Shown piece by piece: positions 2,210 to 48,447 of a DNA stretch of 64,000 nucleotides; position 1 is the first letter of the stretch, and the number at the start of each line of letters is the position of its first letter. The stretch lies in NCBI GenBank assembly GCA_963855995.1, contig OY979718.1:37215059-37279058 (forward strand). Reading direction: 5' to 3'. The notes below the pieces were generated by a model. It saw only the letters and a program-made list of their open reading frames with translations, searched no databases and was not told where the DNA came from. The stretch comes from Muricea muricata. Taxonomy: Eukaryota > Cnidaria > Anthozoa > Malacalcyonacea > Plexauridae. Made by a program: the position numbers and the translations under genes.

Positions 2210-3165
2210 TTAAAGCCACATTGAAACAGACCAACAGGTACTTCACACAAAAGCCTGTACCACTAGACCACTAATTCTCGCATGTGCGCTACTAGACCAC
2301 TAATTCACGCATGTGCGGCGAAAGGTAAATTATTGACTTTTGCAAATTTTTCTTCATTTTAAGTCGAAATTTTTCAAAAGACTCCAAGTTAATAACTTAC
2401 ACTCAGCATTGAAGCATGAAAGAGTGGTCAAGTGGGATAAGCTGGTCAATCAAGGTCCCCTCTCCAATAAGCGCCTCCCCCTCAAAAGGTCCTGAAATGA
2501 ATAAGTCCCCCCCGGGGGCTAAATAGGGAGAATAAGGTAATCAAAACAAACCCTGTAGCACTACACCACTCTTTCAGGCTTAAAGGTACGATGTGAATTA
2601 TTGAGTTAAATCATTTTTTTTCTTTATTTTAATTTAGTGCAAAAGTTTAGTGCCAAAATAAGTGCAAATGAAGTTAGCGAGATTTGATCCTGGTCTGCTG
2701 GCAATTGATACTAAATCCTGCACCCCTTTCACCACTCTTTCATGATTGATGAAATGATGTAAATTATTTACTTTAATCAATTTTTTCCCTAAAATTTAAT
2801 CCAAAATGTTTGCAAACAACTTCGGCGAGATTTGGACCAGACAAACTGGTAATGCACACCAAAGCGCGTATCAGTTCACCACTCGTTAATTCTTAACGAT
2901 GAAAATTATTGACCGCTTAAACATTTTTTTCTTGTATTTAAAGTCAACTCGATTGCATACGACTTCATGGGGATTTGAAGCAGCCAGACCAGTAATTCAG
3001 ACCAAAGCCTGCACCACGGCAACACTCATCCAGAGATGTTAATTATTGACTTTAACCAATTTTTTCATTATTTTAACCTGAAATGTTTGAAAAAAGCTTA
3101 ATGAAGATTTGAACTAAATTAACTGCTTATTTACCCTACAAAGCCTGTACTAGTAGTGCAGAGTT
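2210..3165 (-). repeat. Degenerate tandem units with tRNA-like halves (SINE-like)
   Basis: Units of roughly 130-170 bp repeat with a shared layout: a stretch like GAGATTTGAACCAG, then CCTGCACCACTTCACCACTC, then an AT-rich stretch TTATTGACTTTAACCAATT. On the minus strand this reads as AGAGTGG..., then a box-B-like GGTTCAAATCTC, as in tRNA-derived SINEs. Copies are strongly diverged. The tRNA origin is inferred from the box A/B spacing only. Confidence 0.5.
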
Positions 3166-3195
3166 AGGTTTAGGTTCAGGGTTAGGTTTAGGTTC

Positions 3196-3473
3196 AGGGC
3201 TAGGGCTAGGGCTAGGGCTAGGGCTAGGGCTAGGGCTAGGGCTAGGGCTAGGGCTAGGGCTAGGGCTAGGGCTAGGGCTAGGGCTAGGGCTAGGGCTAGG
3301 GCTAGGGCTAGGGCTAGGGCTAGGGCTAGGGCTAGGGCTAGGGCTAGGGCTAGGGCTAGGGCTAGGGCTAGGGCTAGGGCTAGGGCTAGGGCTAGGGCTA
3401 GGGCTAGGGCTAGGGCTAGGGCTAGGGCTAGGGCTAGGGCTAGGGCTAGGGCTAGGGCTAGGGCTAGGGCTAG
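3196..3473. repeat. Perfect (GGGCTA)46 hexamer array
   Basis: About 46 uninterrupted copies of GGGCTA. Flanks at 3160-3195 and 3474-3543 hold mixed variants such as GGTTAGG, GGTTCAGG and GGGTTAGGG. The unit is a one-base variant of the metazoan telomere repeat TTAGGG. It lies inside the loop of the inverted repeat, not at a chromosome end. Confidence 0.97.
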
Positions 3474-3544
3474 TGTTAGGGCTAGGGTAGGACTTGGGCT
3501 AGGGCTAGGGTTAGGGTAGGGTTAGGACTATAGGGTTAGAGTTA

Positions 3545-26355: not shown

Positions 26356-26500
26356 TGACTACTAACTTCCCGACGAAGGGCCTTCGCTCGAAAGGTTGTC
26401 TGGAAAACACTGACATGGAGACACTGACACGCTGACACTGACATGGAAAACGCTGACATGGAAAACGCTGACATGGAAAACAAATAGATAACATTTTCCG
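26356..26500 (-). repeat. 15-bp minisatellite inside a mobile element (copy 1)
   Basis: On the minus strand, after ACGTTGTCTG-type flanks, copies of TTTTCCATGTCAGCG repeat, next to shorter GTCAGTGTC variants and the end block TGTTTTCCAGACAACC. The same minisatellite in the same context occurs at 28650-28802 and 47959-48153. Confidence 0.85.
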
Positions 26501-26637
26501 GTTGTCTGTTCAGTTATAGATACACGGTATAACGTTGTAATGTGGTAAGAAGAAAAAGTGGACGCTGAGGCGAGTGGGTCACCGATCTTCTTACCACACT
26601 ATGACGTCTACTGTGCATGTATAACTGAACAGACAAC
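26501..26637. repeat. Foldback hairpin joined to the minisatellite
   Basis: The outer arms GTTGTCTGTTCAGTTATA and their inverse enclose an inner pair GGTAAGAAGA / TCTTCTTACC. Related copies lie at 27759-27886 and (right half only) 47836-47940. Confidence 0.85.
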
Positions 26638-26654
26638 GGCAAAATGTTAGTATA

Positions 26655-26815
26655 GGTAATAGTATAATTTCGAGTGCAATTACGGATAAACAAGCACGAG
26701 TGAGTTTTTAAAAACTGCAAAATAGCACGAGTCCGAAGGACGAGTGCTATTTGCGGTTTTTAAAAACTCACGAGTGCTTGTTTTCCGTAATTGCACGAGA
26801 AATTATACTATTACT
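26655..26815. repeat. Foldback hairpin with CCGAAGG centre
   Basis: Near-perfect arms (about 75 bp) run from GGTAATAGTATAATTTCG to its inverse. The turn is GTCCGAAGGAC. Contains AAACAAGCACGAGTGAG in both arms. Confidence 0.88.
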
Positions 26816-27049
26816 TATTAATAATATAAAAAGGAAATGTCCAATCAAACATTTTGTACCTACAACTTCGCATTATGCAAGTGCACTCATTCTCGAATTT
26901 CTTCGCTTAAAAAATTCATGTTTACAAAAGCCATGGCTAAAAGTTTTATGAACAAAGTTCCAGCATACTTTAGAGTTTGTTTTGTGATCATAATTGTCAG
27001 AGAAGAATCCCAAGTTGTGTTGAAATTTCGACGAAATCTTTAAGCAAAC

Positions 27050-27295
27050 GTGAAAATTCGGCCGCCATATTTTTGGTTTTTCAGCGAGTAAATCCCATCG
27101 CTCAAAGAGCTTATTACAGATTTTTGCACTGTTGTTACAGATTTTTGCACTGTTGTTACACATTTTTGCACTGTTGTTACAGATTTTTGCACTGTGTTAC
27201 AGATTTTTGCACTGTTCTGGGTGATGTTTGGGATTAACTGCACTCGAATCAACCAATCACAGCCCAGAAGCATTTCCTTGTATATTATTATCTAT
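27050..27295 (+). repeat. Element with a 21-bp minisatellite (copy 1)
   Basis: About five tandem copies of a 21-bp unit beginning TTACAGATTTTTGCACTG (27114-27215). The 5' flank GGCCGCCATATTTTTGG and 3' flank AACCAATCACAG..CATTTCCTTGTATAT also flank the same unit at 62664-62721, so the array travels inside a larger element. Confidence 0.8.
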
Positions 27296-27758
27296 GTTAA
27301 TAAAAAAGTTTAAAGAAAGTTCGAAAGATGCGATTATCATGAACATTCCAATGGTCGGTTCCGGACGTTTCGTATTTAGGCATGCGCAGAAAGTACGCGT
27401 AGAACGGACTTTATATAGTTTTTAGCCATACTATTACTAACTGGTAAATAATACTTTTAAATATTAATTCATTGACAGTACAGTGGTATTTTTTTAGGTA
27501 ATTTTTATATAATAATCAGAGAACAGTCTGGACTTTCATTGGTCGAGAACCTATGGCGATATTTTAATAAACAGCCAATCACAGACATTTCAAAATTATT
27601 AGCTGGCAATGGTGTACTTTATTTTGTAGAGATCACGATCACGACAAATGGCGTGCGAAAATCTTTTGGTGGCATGCACTATGGGGCTGCACAAGAAAGC
27701 CTTCTTTGCAAAGCAGTTCAACTGTTTTACTGTATATAGCAAATAAATAACATTTAGC

Positions 27759-27886
27759 AGTTATCAGTTCAGTTATAGATGCATGGTAGAGGCAGCCCAT
27801 GTGGTAACAACATCAGTGGGCCACTTTTTTGTTCTTACCACATTATAACGCATCATACCGTGTGTCCATAACTGAACAGACAACAG
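27759..27886. repeat. Foldback hairpin related to 26501-26637
   Basis: Shares AGTTCAGTTATAGAT and its mirror ATAACTGAACAGACAAC, plus the inner GTGGTAACAACA / TGTTCTTACCAC pair. Confidence 0.75.
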
Positions 27887-27889
27887 CAA

Positions 27890-28490
27890 AATACTATTGT
27901 TTATTATATAGTTGACAGTAAGATACTGAAAATACATGCACCGTAAGATATTTTCCATATTTTCACTAGTGAAGATATCGATCACGTGATCGTGATTTCC
28001 CGCCAATAATTTTGTATTTTCAAAATGGCGATGTTTGTAACAGCAGCGAACCAATTTTCACCTCTGTTTATAGAAAAAAACTAAATGTTTGTGGCGAAAA
28101 ATGGAAATAATACGAGAAAACACTAAAATGATGAACAGGTATTGTTTTAGTTTAAATAATATTGAAATAAAGCCATGTTTTTAGCATTATTGATCGAAAA
28201 TTAATATTACTGACACAGATTGCACAGATTGGCAAGTTTTCGTAAACAAAAATGGTGGAATGTGCGAAAAGTTTGATGAACTTCACGAAGAATTATAAAG
28301 TATTTTGGAGGACAAGGACGTTGGAAACACAAATATTTAAAAAATTAAAAGGAATTTTCTGTACTTCTCGTTATAAAAATAAACAAAGAACTGGCTATTT
28401 TGTATTTTAGAGCATCATATTCACGAAGTTATGTTCAACTTGAAAAACTTAAAAGTTTATTCTTACGGAAGTTTTTGATTTTCGGTATAA
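27890..28490. other. No gene seen; promoter-like motifs
   Basis: Around 27970-28060 there is GATCACGTGATC (E-box core) and TTTCCCGCC (E2F-like), then AAAATGGCGATG opening a 19-codon frame. There is no longer coding frame, so this may be a promoter relic or chance. Confidence 0.25.
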
Positions 28491-28632
28491 TATATCATTT
28501 ATTGACCCTCCGCTCGGGGGATTCAGTGAAATATTTCCTTCAGTGATATTTCCCTCGGGCTAAAGCCCTCGGGAAATATCATCACTTCAGGAAATATTTC
28601 ACTGAATCCCCCTCGCTCCGGGTATATAAATG
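28491..28632. repeat. Foldback hairpin
   Basis: Arms of about 68 bp (TATATCATTTATTGACCC... mirrored by GGGTATATAAATGATA) around GGGCTAAAGCCC. Lies 20 bp upstream of the second minisatellite copy. Confidence 0.88.
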
Positions 28633-28649
28633 ATAATTATATTATGTTA

Positions 28650-28802
28650 ACTTGCCATGTCAGCGTTTTACATCTTCCGTGTCAGCGTTTTCCATGTCAG
28701 CGTTTTCCATGTCAGCGTTTTCCATGTCAGCGTTTTCCATGTCATTGTCAGCGTGTCAGTGTCAGTGTGTCAATGTCAATGTGTCAGTGTTTTCCAGACA
28801 AC
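28650..28802 (+). repeat. 15-bp minisatellite (copy 2)
   Basis: About five copies of TTTTCCATGTCAGCG then GTCAGTGTCAGTGTGTCAAT variants, ending TGTTTTCCAGACAACC. Three overlapping open frames across the array are by-products of a repeat unit divisible by 3. Confidence 0.88.
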
Positions 28803-28804
28803 CC

Positions 28805-29767
28805 GCTCGAAACGTCAAATTCTGTTTATATCGTTTCAGGTAGTGAAAGTTCCTTTATTTTGTGCTTTCGGCTGCACTACCCTGACTGGAAATGTTAGTT
28901 CGAGATGTTACTGTCTGTTACCATATCAATTTATTTGCAAAATTTGGCACAGGTTCACGAAGCAAATAATTTGAAAGAAGAACTGACAAAGAAGCGACTT
29001 ACTACTTTAAATCTATCTTTGGATCGTCGTGGCTTCGATTGGTGTCGTTTCGTCACGCTGTTTATGGTTTCATCTGGTTGACACTCTCTCTTCGTAGAAC
29101 ATCATGTCGGTCCAGTAGGTAACAAGCTCACTCGTATCCCGTTAGCCATCATAAAATAAGGAGAAAATTAATGTTACAAAATATTTCAGAATATTGGAAA
29201 CTAGACAAAGATTTGATTGTAAATGACTTTGACAAACCGTACATTATATTAGTATTTGCATCTTGACATCTGATGGACACGGCTAGTGGTTCAATTCTTA
29301 GATCGATATCAATTCTTTCTCATCTTGTTGTGTCATTTTTTGGTGGTTGGTGTATTCACTTTGACATCCTTTGAAAAAATCAACAATTACAATGTTTAGA
29401 AATCTGTTCACAAGATAAGCAAAGACAGCTAGCTTAATAAGTATTAGAGAGGACTAAGTAATTAATACTTAGCGTTGCATGTCCTAGAGGGTAATCGACG
29501 GACAACACTCCTAAATCACTTAAAACCGCGGACAAATATATTTATGCATTTATATCTATATTCTATTTTGTTTTTGAAGTGGGCAGTATATATTTTATTC
29601 AGGCCCACTTAAGCCCAAGATATGTTTTAAAGAAACTAAAAAAAATATTTGACCACGTAAGTTAGAAGACTAATACGGGCGCCCAAGAGTAACAACAATT
29701 TTCTCAATCTGGGTTAGACTTTTTGATTAGATAAATAACGTTTACGAAAATAAGAGAGTAATAAAAT
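28805..29767. other. No gene seen
   Basis: AT-rich, without recognisable proteins, RNAs or repeats. Confidence 0.35.
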
Positions 29768-42818: not shown

Positions 42819-43406
42819 TTAGGATTGGTTGGTGCGAAAATGAGCTAACAGGATTCGACGGTTGTTGGATTGTGGGTTGTTTGATTGGCATTGGTTGGTG
42901 CAAAAATGAATCAACAGGATTGGACGGTTGTTGGGTCGCAGGATCGTTAATAGGCATTGGTTGGTGCGGAAATCAACCAGCAGGATTGGACAGTTGTTGG
43001 GCTGTGGGTTGGTTAATTGGCATTGGCTAATCGGAATCGGTACGCTGATGGATTGACTTAAAGTTGGTGCTGACATACATGGTTGTTCCTTTAAATAGCT
43101 AGCTTTCCCATTGTTGTTGAACTGAAATATCGGTTCCGAAAATGGTGCAGACTGAGCGAACGCCTGTGGATAAGATTGTCTATCTTCTGTATGTCCTAGC
43201 CTTGGAAAAGTTTTAACGTGGTCGGTAGAAGGATGTTTTCGTGTTCCTCCTCGCTTTCGGGGCGCTTGGTTTGGCTTCCGTCCTCGACCTCTAGGCATAC
43301 CATAAGTGACCGCGCTGCTATAACTAACTCCTCCTGTTTTGCGATGCTTCGTTACGGGCCATTTTAAGTATGTCTCCAGCCGTTGGAGCTTTAGGCTTAC
43401 AGCAAC
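42819..43406 (-). pseudogene. C-terminal part of SWIM/MULE-like protein with AT-hook-like tail
   Basis: The minus strand continues from the SWIM finger (interrupted by the element at 43407-43609) into VAVSLKLQRLETYLKWPVTK. It then reaches a basic GMPRGRGRKPNQAPRKRGG motif that resembles an AT hook, as often found at the C-terminus of SWIM-bearing transposase-like proteins. The last 65 codons are encoded by three 66-bp tandem repeats (about 42834-43030) rich in Asn, Pro and Gln. Frame remains open to 42819. Confidence 0.5.
42834..43031. repeat. 66-bp minisatellite, three copies
   Basis: Three units each begin TTGGTTGGTGC and end GGCA. The length is a multiple of three, so the minus-strand frame stays open across all copies. 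Confidence 0.9.
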
Positions 43407-43609
43407 CAGTGGCGGATCCAAGGTAAGTCAAAATAAATTATAGCAGCTCAATTTTAAATTCAAAATAACTTTATAACAATGTCATAGGTTATGAATTTCA
43501 AAAGAATAAAATCTAACCAATGAAGTTGCTTTGAAGGTATTTTAAAATGTAAAAATATCCTAGAATGAGCTGTGGTAATTTATTTTGACTTACGCTAGAT
43601 CCTCCACTG
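43407..43609. mobile_element. 203-bp hAT5-like MITE with 5-bp target duplication
   Basis: The TIRs start CAGTGGCGGATC and continue through GTAAGTCAAAATAAATTA for about 50 bp. The flanks are GCAAC at 43402-43406 and 43610-43614. A 5-bp duplication with such ends is reported for hAT5-type elements. It sits just after the SWIM finger codons. A right-truncated copy in opposite orientation is at 52488-52657. Confidence 0.88.
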
Positions 43610-44160
43610 GCAACTGCATGTGCGCACAGTGATAGAGAGCTGTAGCCTGGACAATCCTGACATTCGCACTTGCCATTTGCCATGAAAACCACAACATGTG
43701 GAGCTCAGTCATTCTGGGTTGAAGCTCAGTCATTCTGCCCCAACGCCATGGCGAAACGCTAATGTGTTGGAACGCCTCTCGAAGTTGGTACTGCCCTTTA
43801 CCTTCTGCGGCAAGTTCAATTTCTTGTTCTTGCGTGTCGATAAGTTCTTTCAGTGTTTGTGCAAAAACATATTCGTCAACTTTACCCCCAGTCTTCCGCT
43901 TTACAAAATCCTGGATCACACCGTTTGTCCTTTCGGATCTGTTTGTGGTAAATCTTTCTGGAGGACATCCTAATCCGGCCCTTTCGCGTGCTGGACGAAT
44001 AACACTCTCTACAAATTCCTTTGCTTTGTTTTTAAGAAACTATTCGTAAAATTCAGCTCCTTTTTCTTGGGCACCAGACCATTTCTGCTTGAGCAGTTTC
44101 ATTTGTTGTTCAAAATCACTAAGATTACTTGCATCAGAAAGCACGAACTGAAAAATATTA
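43590..44160 (-). pseudogene. MULE-type transposase-like fragment with SWIM zinc finger
   Basis: The minus strand reads FVLSDASNLSDFEQQM from 44148 and continues in one frame through ERFTTNRSERTNG (about 43965-43930) to 43720. The ERTNG-type motif and what follows resemble the C-terminal half of MULE-type transposases. An in-frame TAG lies at 44040-44042. A 21-bp tandem duplication at about 43701-43741 accompanies a frame change. In the new frame, CECQDC..CAH (43618-43665) forms a SWIM zinc finger (CxC..CxH). The DDE core is not present. It lies directly downstream of the kinase-like part. Confidence 0.55.
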
Positions 44161-44170
44161 ATTTCTGGAT

Positions 44171-44954
44171 TCAATAGGCATGAGCAGTCCACAAGCCCAT
44201 GTCAGCCCGCTTTAACTCCTCAAGAGTAGCATTTGCAACCTTCCCACAATGAAAATCCGGAGCAATAAAAACTGGTGTGCCTCGATCAACACGCTGGGTG
44301 TGCGATGCGACGAGTGTTTGAGTTTGAATGTTAGCATCCTTGCTTTCACCGAAATCCACTAATTTTGCTTGTACGGGCTCATCGCTAAATATTTCTTTAA
44401 CCCGATCAGCGTCGTCTGCAACTCCTGCGTAGTGCTGGTTTGTAACTAAAATATACTCAGGTTTGAGATCACGGTGGGCGATACCGTTACTGTGCAGGAA
44501 AGACAGACAGGCTGATATCATTAGAAATTTGAAGCGGTAATTTCTCGAAGGACATGAAATCACACTCTTCGTCGAATTGCCAAAGATTTCCAAGCGAGCT
44601 GCATTTTTTATCCATTCCAAATGGACGAAAATCAAAGCAAAGGTACTCAAGCATTATGGCGTAAGGATCATTACAAAAAGCAATAAACTCGACGATTTAT
44701 CGTGGTTTTTCACCTTAACTATGCGTGTCTTCTTCAAAAAGATTTTCTTGCTTTGTCGTTCTCCTGATCTAAGACGCTTTACAACAATATCTCGGCCATT
44801 GTATTTCCCATGGTATACAATACCCAAAGAACCGCCACCGACTTTTTGTTTATCCGAGACATCTTTCCATAAAAAATGCGGAATATCTAAATCTTGTGCC
44901 TGCTTTGATGCTTTCGTATCGCATGGACAGAATGGGAAATTTAAACTCTGCCAT
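44171..44954 (-). pseudogene. Protein-kinase-like pseudogene
   Basis: From a start at 44954 the minus strand shows, in order, a glycine-rich loop (GGGSLGIVYHG, about 44840), the ATP-binding lysine in DIVVKRL (about 44780), HRDLKPEYILV (about 44470), DFGESKD (about 44350) and GTPVFIAPD (about 44275). At least three frame changes (about 44930, 44690 and 44500) separate these parts. The Asn that normally follows HRDLKPE is Tyr, so activity would be doubtful even without frameshifts. The domain stops after the subdomain VIII/IX region and runs into the transposase-like part. TATATA lies about 20 bp upstream of the start. Confidence 0.75.
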
Positions 44955-45601: not shown

Positions 45602-46659
45602 TCAATCCATTTTATCATAAAACACACAAAATTCGTCAAGTAGAAGCTTGTATATGTTTTCAAATGATACAAAATTGATGAAACTCATAAATAATCGTTT
45701 CTTACAAGGTGAACGAACGTAGTTTCGATCATTTGAAACCATCGTATCAGTAACAATTATAACGGAAAATATCGCGTATTAAACTACAAACATCAAGGCA
45801 AACACAGACCGAGCGCGATTTGGTAACGTGACGCGAATTTCGAATTTTCAACGTCGTATAAATTCGTCGTTTTATAATTTTCCACTTTTCTCAATCGTTT
45901 GGAAACATATTAGCAACTTGAACCATTTGGCATGCAAGCCTTGCGAAATTTTTTTCCATTGGCGCTTTTGGTTTGAAAAAAAAAATTGCGTCGCGTTTTG
46001 TAATCGCATTCGGTCTCGATCTGTGGGTCTCCACGTTACAGACGTGGACAAACCCGTGAAAATGTTTGCGCGCAATAATTAGTGCTTGCATGCAAATTTC
46101 TCTTTACCTAGCTAGTCTATATTGGTGAACCGATTGGGGTTTTTTTGCCATACCGCTACCGCCCATTTATTAATAATTGCATTAGGTATGGGTTCAAATC
46201 AACGAATATGCAAGCATGCACGGCGAATGTAGAGTCTAGATGTTGTTCTGAACTCTGAATTAGTGTTTATACTATGTACTAAAGTCCACTATTTTAGTGC
46301 TTTCTTTATATTAATATATAAGATTAACACTAATTCGATGCTTCGTATAACGGGGAAACGCCCGCTACACAGGCTGCCATAACCTTTGTTAACTATATTA
46401 CTATTATTAACGGCCATGTAATAGCTTTCAATATTCATAGATGGTACAATGGTATTGTGCGATGATTTTTTATGTATTAATATAGACTTTTTATGTAACA
46501 ATATAGATTTCATTGGTCTAGAACCGTGATCTATTGGGAGATGCCATTTTAATAAGCAGCTATTTCAAAATTATCAGGGGCTGGTTGCTCGAAGCCCGTT
46601 TAGCGTAAACGGTGGATAAGTCAAAATTAAATAACACTCTTATATCACTCGTTAAACAA
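45602..46659. other. No gene seen
   Basis: No recognised family. An 84-codon frame at 45828-46082 is unassigned. Confidence 0.35.
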
Positions 46660-47540: not shown

Positions 47541-47835
47541 TAAAGGCACGTGTATGATCATGCGTTTCCCGGACTGACCTTTAAACTCCATTAGACTTTG
47601 CACAACTTTACTTCTGGCCCTTCGCTTGTTTCATTAACTTAAGATTATAGTGCTGTTACACATATAAACTTGCTACTTAAATATTTTGCAGTAAATATGT
47701 AGTTGTAAGTAAGCTTAATCATTCTATTAAGGTTCAAAGCTTTTAGTTTGGTTGTTGAATGAATCTATAAACTTGGTTTCTAATTTGAGCTTAACCACCG
47801 TTTAAGCTAAACCGGCTTCGAACAACCGGCCCCAG

Positions 47836-47945
47836 GTAAGAAGATCGGTGACCCACTCGCCCCGGCGGCCACTTTGTCTTCTTACCGGCACATTATAACA
47901 CGTACGCCATATCGTGTATTTATAACTGAACAGACAACGGGAAAA
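47836..47945 (+). repeat. Half of the foldback hairpin
   Basis: Carries GGTAAGAAGATCGGTGACCC and TATAACTGAACAGACAACGG, as in 26501-26637, but the left outer arm is missing. Confidence 0.7.
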
Positions 47946-47958
47946 TGTTATCTATTTG

Positions 47959-48153
47959 TTTTCCATGTCAGCGTTTTCCATGTCAGCGTTTTCCCTGTCA
48001 GCGTTTTCCATGTTAGCGTTTTCCATGCACATGTTAGCGTTTTCCATGTCAGCGTTTTCCATGTCAGCGTTTTTGTCTTTTGATATCAGCATTTTCCATG
48101 TCAGTGTCAGCGTTTCAGTGTCTCAATGCCAGTGTGTCAGTGTTTTCCAGACA
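47959..48153 (+). repeat. 15-bp minisatellite (copy 3)
   Basis: About eight units of TTTTCCATGTCAGCG and variants followed by GTGTCAGTGTTTTCCAGAC, in the same order as copies 1 and 2. Confidence 0.9.
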
Positions 48154-48447
48154 CCCAAATGCGGGACCGTTTCACAGGAATGAGTCATTTTGAATTATTA
48201 TATACTGAATGTCAAAGTTCATTTATTCCTGTTTCTTATTGGTTAAGAACGTATCACGTGATAGTGGAGAAATTCTACTGTCTCCCTGGCAACGTAGCTA
48301 AGCGGTGGACATTACTTTTATTCACCGGTAAATAACAAATCCACAGAGCCTCACGGAGCCATGTCAGGTAAAAGGTAATCCTTTTTACACATGTCTGATT
48401 GATTTGTGGTACTTTTCTTCTCTTTTGACACTCAGTATATAATGAAA

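Follow-up and report, generated by a model that had tools for sequence, protein, structure and literature searches.

A kinase-transposase locus in the coral Muricea muricata is probably a dead internal-deletion derivative of a Mutator-like transposon carrying a protein kinase and a predicted papain-like peptidase

The locus described here is, with a probability of about 0.85, a dead internal-deletion derivative of a Mutator-like DNA transposon of approximately 15 kb that carries a kinase, a papain-like peptidase and a MULE transposase, the kinase and peptidase being putative element-encoded helpers. It lies within a 64,000-nucleotide stretch of the Muricea muricata genome (C3:37215059-37279058), referred to here as the window, and its relatives were sought in the whole genome (453 Mb, 74 contigs; contigs are denoted by C and loci by L, each with a number). 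Direct observation covers the order in which the parts lie, its inverted ends and 9-bp target-site duplications, the multiplicity of copies and the conserved catalytic residues of the element. From 5' to 3' the full element would consist of a protein kinase, a papain-like peptidase domain, linker exons, and a transposase of the MULE DDE type that bears a SWIM finger and an AT-hook-like tail.

A first-pass annotation of the locus had described a kinase-like part, a transposase-like part, a SWIM finger and an AT-hook-like tail, head to tail on one strand with almost no spacer. All four parts are present on the minus strand in the order and place described, but the near absence of a spacer reflects a deletion: the kinase and transposase parts are close together because approximately 5.6 kb present in the C25 copy has been lost at 44157/44158 (Table 1). 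The kinase is read from two frames (44956-44654 and 44653-44171, minus strand), of which the second matches Pfam Pkinase with an E value of 1.6e-11 and the first with 0.062 (0.0048 for PK_Tyr_Ser-Thr). It is damaged by a frameshift, by a Tyr in place of Asn in the HRDLKP-x-N motif, and by the change of APE to APD with loss of the Glu. The transposase-like frame (44039-43590), the SWIM finger (CxCx11CxH, inside the frame 43704-43513) and the AT-hook-like RGRGRKP (inside the frame 43427-42819), all on the minus strand, gave no significant match in Pfam, and a search of the window against Rfam returned 0 matches. Between the SWIM finger and the AT-hook-like tail sits a 203-bp MITE-like insert, which is found at 97-99% identity in at least 29 further genomic places (40 of 952 candidates scored). 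The kinase, peptidase and transposase functions of this copy are gone.

Table 1. Features of the degraded element and of the second copy in the window (window coordinates; a dot marks features given no strand).
Feature	Position	Strand	Remarks
5' terminus of degraded element	48135..48156	-	GGGTGTCTGGAAAACACTGACA read inward; 1 mismatch to terminus pattern
5' terminal region	47835..48156	-	15-bp minisatellite array (47958-48073); 76% identity to inverted 3' end of C25 copy
5' leader region of element	45605..46577	-	83-84% identity to C1:42.9-Mb copy
Kinase exon, broken	44158..44954	-	start codon (MAEFKFPILS) at 44954; remainder removed by deletion
Internal deletion junction	44157..44158	-	~5.6 kb missing vs C25:318323..323908
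MULE transposase fragment, catalytic Glu region (TTNRSERTN)	43719..44157	-	93-95% DNA identity to C25, C1:30.0, C1:66.3 and C1:42.9 copies
Second internal deletion	43701..43719	-	~258 bp missing vs L071 2625..2884; scar repeats AGAATGACTGAGCT
SWIM zinc finger part (CECQDC...CAH)	43610..43701	-	
MITE-like insertion, 203 bp	43407..43609	.	ends CAGTGG.../...CCACTG; 5-bp duplication GCAAC; empty site in L071
Transposase C-terminal part	42819..43406	-	AT-hook-like RGRGRKP (~43272-43292); three 66-bp repeats (42824-43026)
Second copy, same element family, non-autonomous	26394..28803	+	both inverted ends and 3' region
9-bp target-site duplication, left copy	26385..26393	.	CGCTCGAAA
9-bp target-site duplication, right copy	28804..28812	.	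CGCTCGAAA

Pieces of the 2,136 bp of the locus match four other loci (C25, and C1 at 30.0, 66.3 and 42.9 Mb) in the same order and on the same strand at 79-96% DNA identity, which excludes a chance origin for the parts in the window. In these four relatives the kinase part (query 1-798) lies apart from the MULE part (797 on), and the junction at 44157/44158 is therefore a deletion. The earlier idea that a kinase exon had been fused to a transposon at this point is consequently not supported, and TTTTTCAG is rejected as a splice acceptor of the parent: the C25 relative has TTTTTCAA there, encoding I-F-Q, in an uninterrupted transposase frame of 578 aa. In the full-length element, it is plausible that splicing over introns joins kinase and transposase, at a junction different from the one first proposed. 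The first-pass annotation had named as counter-evidence relatives in which the two parts always stand separately, with the junction unique to this locus; of the matches scored, none but the window has the exact junction, but both parts co-occur elsewhere.

The kinase-MULE arrangement recurs across the genome. We found a MULE match within 16 kb at 38 of the 68 kinase places tested (window included), against approximately 0.6 expected under uniform chance. The MULE match lies downstream on the same strand in 38/38 of these, as a kinase-bearing mobile element, one of the possibilities first raised, would have it; two kinase places share one MULE place, and the distance from kinase to MULE is 4-8 kb in 28 of the 38. 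The count draws upon 68 of 121 kinase rows, leaving out weaker rows and those that repeated a place by overlap or on the opposite strand, and upon 124 of 131 MULE rows, the best candidates having been scored so that both lists are lower bounds. No MULE match was found nearby at 30 of the 68 kinase places, and 87 of the 124 MULE places had none of these kinase matches nearby, so that some MULEs either are without a kinase or have one that has diverged beyond recognition. Kinase and MULE protein distances are correlated (Mantel r 0.65 for 18 elements, with 0 of 9999 permutations as high), and remain so after near-identical elements are collapsed (r 0.53, 9 of 9999, 12 elements). At C1:40.99 and C63 the kinases group one way and the transposases another, and their distances disagree with respect to C4:12.8; the discordant groupings suggest that modules may have been exchanged between MULE lineages, and they argue against simple joint descent.

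Both parts were found enclosed within a single bounded unit at C1:66350737-66365975. Inverted ends bound this unit of 15,239 bp, and ATTTTGGAA flanks it on both sides as a perfect 9-bp duplication; the kinase match lies at 66360467-66359674 and the MULE matches within 66353908-66352514, the interior having been read except for two stretches. With a relative that encloses both parts between inverted ends and a target duplication, there is strong support for reading the window locus as what remains of a kinase-bearing mobile element, and the repeated kinase-MULE order together with the 15.2-kb unit places the kinase in a Mutator-like transposon family.

The window kinase copy extends beyond the range originally annotated to a 5' terminus at 48156, and its 5' terminal region resembles the ends of the second window copy. 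No 3' terminus of the kinase copy was found within the window, the 3' end having been lost; a match at 27.3 kb was considered for this role and rejected, because it is part of the second copy, which has a partner end and a 9-bp duplication of its own. Inside that copy neither a kinase nor a MULE match was seen. The terminus GGTTGTCTGGAAAACACTGACA, or a near version of it, is common to four ends, which belong to the C25 copy and to both copies in the window, forming the terminal inverted repeats of a MULE by its occurrence in inverted pairs, and is followed in all three copies by a minisatellite with a 15-bp unit. At no more than 1 mismatch the terminus pattern occurs at 11 genomic places, the reversed control at 0. 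The C25 copy runs off its contig, and the flank of the end on C69 is the reverse complement of the C25 flank; the two ends, on two contigs, have matching 9-bp flanks (TCTTAACGA), and contigs C25 and C69 probably abut inside one transposon copy, an assembly break. Target-site duplications of the approximately 9 bp characteristic of MULEs were found in three elements: ATTTTGGAA, CGCTCGAAA, and TCTTAACGA, the last across two contigs.

The MULE part of the relatives matches PF10551 at an E value of 4.2e-4, with scores of 21.1 and 15.5 bits that fall under the Pfam cut-off of 27.6. In the alignment the catalytic D, D and E are found in 26/26, 27/28 and 28/30 rows, the Cys in 23/25 and the His in 21/26. 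The CxxH motif is a feature of the MULE DDE transposase, and the relatives have both this motif and the MULE domain of such an enzyme, though with the PF10551 score under the cut-off.

Pfam kinase matches in other copies reach E values of 2.5e-39 and 7.2e-39. In the kinase alignment the Lys is kept in 28/29 rows, the HRD Asp in 29/30, the Asn in 27/30 and the DFG Asp in 30/30; near-duplicate loci were left out of these counts, the window contributes two rows (L001 and window) that are the source of both Tyr-for-Asn changes, and L019 and L020 are identical in the compared frame. The relatives have a protein kinase domain in which K, D and D are kept, and the window copy is without the Asn and the APE Glu. 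The best matches in the PDB are MNK2, IRE1 and ULK1 with E values of approximately 1e-16 to 1e-12, so that no family name can be assigned to the kinase. L011 showed no start motif, and comparing its full frame with that of L010 yielded nothing. In L012 the kinase frame ends early, and the next frame resembles a retrotransposon on inspection by eye.

In the relatives, the kinase frame runs on into a C-terminal domain with an invariant Cys and Asp-x-His; kinase and domain are in one frame in L018 (C4:12.8) and L010 (C1:40.99), of 630 and 635 aa respectively. Genomic matches to this peptidase-like domain make up 57 rows, equal to 43 places, of which 32 have a kinase within 4.5 kb on their upstream side, 6 have no kinase but do have a MULE match downstream, and 5 have neither (all 57 rows were compared with 63 kinase and 10 MULE entries picked from the match lists). 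No such domain was found in the C11 copy within the 10 kb read.

Splice sites, read by eye from genomic sequence, bear on whether kinase, peptidase and transposase are parts of one gene. A GT donor can be read after the peptidase domain, apparently in phase 1, in 10 of the 10 copies listed (six sequence groups). In L071 the path from there would lead through an acidic VIILESSSES exon (phase 1 to 0) and then one of 44 nt (0 to 2), before entering the first MULE exon (2 to 1) and finally the main one; in L072, phase 2 is possible both for the end of the kinase exon and for the start of the first MULE exon. In L071, L072 and the C4 copy, no ATG precedes the conserved stretch of that exon, and candidate exon b of the C4 copy does not fit an in-frame path. 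The splice phases and a first transposase exon without a start codon suggest one putative kinase-peptidase-transposase gene. We put just short of even odds on the fuller proposal of a single-gene animal DNA transposon, in which one protein would be kinase, deubiquitinase-like peptidase of viral type and DDE transposase at once, and would bring phosphorylation and ubiquitin editing of its own to the transposition complex or to host silencing. The alternative, which competes with the one-gene part alone, is that two or more separate genes on one transposon, kinase-peptidase and transposase, have promoters of their own and are not spliced to each other. This too is quite possible, though somewhat under an even chance: the unspliced frame meets a stop 4-11 codons after the peptidase domain in the ten copies listed, and in plant MULEs the Ulp1 gene is one of three coding genes, according to the available part of PMC13317346. 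Against separate genes stand the GT donor after the domain in all ten copies, the phase-compatible path in L071 and L072, and, in three subfamilies, a first MULE exon whose conserved part has no start codon ahead of it.

The nature of the C-terminal domain was approached through its conserved residues and a structural model. The Cys, Asp and His were kept in 19/19, 17/17 and 17/17 rows of a first alignment, and in a second, Asn15, Cys17, Asp146 and His148 were invariant in 13/13 rows, two of these rows being near-copies. A first fold from seven sequences (pLDDT 57.5) had no convincing match and was set aside; an AlphaFold (AF2) model from thirteen sequences had a pLDDT of 81.7 and a pTM of 0.81. 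The top Foldseek match of the latter was 2j7q (M48 USP; E 1.6e-3, prob 1.00, TM 0.44), no match of this model reached E 0.001, and rows 3-8 were MCF-like effectors and the PaTox cysteine protease-like domain. We take MCF to have the same fold as the M48 protease and the PaTox domain, and the catalytic triad of M48 presumably corresponds to the Cys and Asp-x-His arrangement. From the model, the domain is predicted to be a cysteine peptidase of papain-like fold, similar in structure to the herpesvirus M48 deubiquitinase. It is unlikely to be some other fold, such as a structural portion of the kinase, in which a Cys and an Asp-x-His happen to be conserved. Such a fold would suit the lack of a convincing relative in sequence profile searches of Pfam and the PDB, and the top structural match goes no further than the E value and TM given above; it does not suit the makeup of the best eight Foldseek rows, which are all M48 protease, MCF-like effectors or the PaTox domain, nor a model in which the Cys is at the start of a helix and the Asp-x-His follows a strand. 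Ulp1 in Pfam gave no match to the domain at E values up to 5 (seven members scanned). Viral contigs searched with one peptide pattern yielded nothing, and the 24 phage records with matches were below 60% identity, none covering 80% of the query.

Median dN/dS was 0.65 for the kinase (40 pairs with dS of 0.03-1.2, hairpin copies included), 0.40 for the C-terminal domain (6 pairs) and 0.69 for MULE (29 pairs), and L018 and L019 differ by 4 synonymous and 10 nonsynonymous codons; recent copies therefore drift under weak constraint. Transposon copies often drift. Longer-term constraint may be read from the catalytic residues conserved across subfamilies. The weak constraint among recent copies would also fit a kinase that is mere cargo, a host gene captured by chance and carried passively in the manner of a Pack-MULE, and MULEs are prone to acquiring host gene fragments according to the portions available of PMC6446971 and PMC6431247. 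We nevertheless consider cargo quite improbable, because the kinase is found with divergent MULE lineages and co-varies with the transposase, because its catalytic residues are kept between copies approximately 40-50% alike, and because the relatives hold a transposase inside the same unit as the kinase, unlike Pack-MULEs, which are captured gene fragments without one. That a kinase pseudogene merely came to lie beside an unrelated transposon relic is next to impossible, for although the exact junction is seen in the window alone among the matches scored, the same order is found at 37 other kinase places and inside a unit with a target duplication, and the 38 of 68 paired places rule out chance neighbours.

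For the Mutator-like element carrying its own kinase and peptidase, we propose that the transposase would move the unit by cut and paste. The kinase and peptidase would act as element-encoded helpers, possibly within one spliced polyprotein with the transposase. These helpers may change phosphorylation and ubiquitin-type marks on the transposase or on host silencing and repair factors, and so favour transposition.

The element shares with Mutator-like elements such as MuDR, Phantom and Ghost the 9-bp target duplication, long inverted ends, and a MULE domain with a SWIM finger, but adds a kinase and a papain-like peptidase upstream of the transposase, perhaps fused to it. Extra domains given for MULEs in the available text of a 2019 survey include OTU (Hydra), SET and FAR1, and minisatellites are given there for Rehavkus and aphid Phantom elements (PMC6446971); OTU is also mentioned for Helentrons in the passages seen of PMC6431247. 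The word 'kinase' is absent from the main text of the survey and from those passages. No MULE with a kinase was found among titles and abstract beginnings of openly licensed papers, Repbase being outside that scope and an earlier description being possible; the combination of kinase, protease-like domain and transposase was likewise not found in the literature searched. Ulp1 occurs in plant VANDAL MULEs, where the KIU and Kaonashi elements resemble the coral element in joining a MULE to a ubiquitin/SUMO-type cysteine peptidase, one strongly conserved in eudicots; as far as the available part of the source goes, these are plant, non-TIR elements of Ulp1 type with no kinase mentioned (PMC13317346), whereas the coral element is bounded by TIRs, has a predicted M48-like fold and no Ulp1 match, and carries a kinase. 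MuDR-6_HM of Hydra is another cnidarian MULE, listed with a deubiquitinase-type domain ('Ovarian Tumour Gene'); compared by description, this domain is OTU and no kinase is listed in the accessible text (PMC6446971), in contrast to the coral element. The M48 USP (2j7q), with a similar predicted arrangement of Cys and Asp-x-His, has no profile-detectable sequence similarity to the coral domain and shares 10% identity over the structural alignment.

Five loci (L021, L024, L028, L029 and L030, at C3:12.9, C5:6.6, C1:118.9, C1:110.6 and C1:76.6 Mb, respectively) are convergent inverted duplications of the 5' part of the element with the kinase exon. Their arm pieces measure 0.5-1.36 kb at 91-98%, and four of the centres match that of L024 at 93-99% over approximately 350 bp. 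Since the centre is common to all five, they seem to go back to a single hairpin derivative that spread in the manner of a mobile Mu killer. In the list of kinase matches, eleven pairs on opposite strands were picked out by eye, and all are convergent. Mu killer of maize is likewise an inverted duplication of part of a MULE, comparable to these hairpins elsewhere in the coral genome; in the portion of the source available it duplicates mudrA (PMC3440606), whereas the coral hairpin holds the kinase exon, at five places outside the window.

Two further observations concern the window and the assembly. Window positions 3159-3530 hold approximately 56 AGGGCT units beside a short CAGGGTTAGGTTTAGGTT array, resembling an interstitial telomere-like repeat. 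Contig C74 carries cox1, a nad1-like frame and a MutS gene, and looks mitochondrial; mitochondrial mutS is an octocoral hallmark, which makes an octocoral host probable. The cox1 frame of C74 stays open when read with the standard code or with codes 4, 5, 9 and 13, and Arg at AGR sites, as in other Cox1 sequences, favours code 4.

The hairpin derivatives provide a natural setting in which to test animal self-silencing, and transposon kinases may explain some of the divergent kinases that gene predictors may count in such genomes. A kinase and a predicted deubiquitinase-like domain kept in one transposon family would provide a direct route to how selfish DNA edits host post-translational control.
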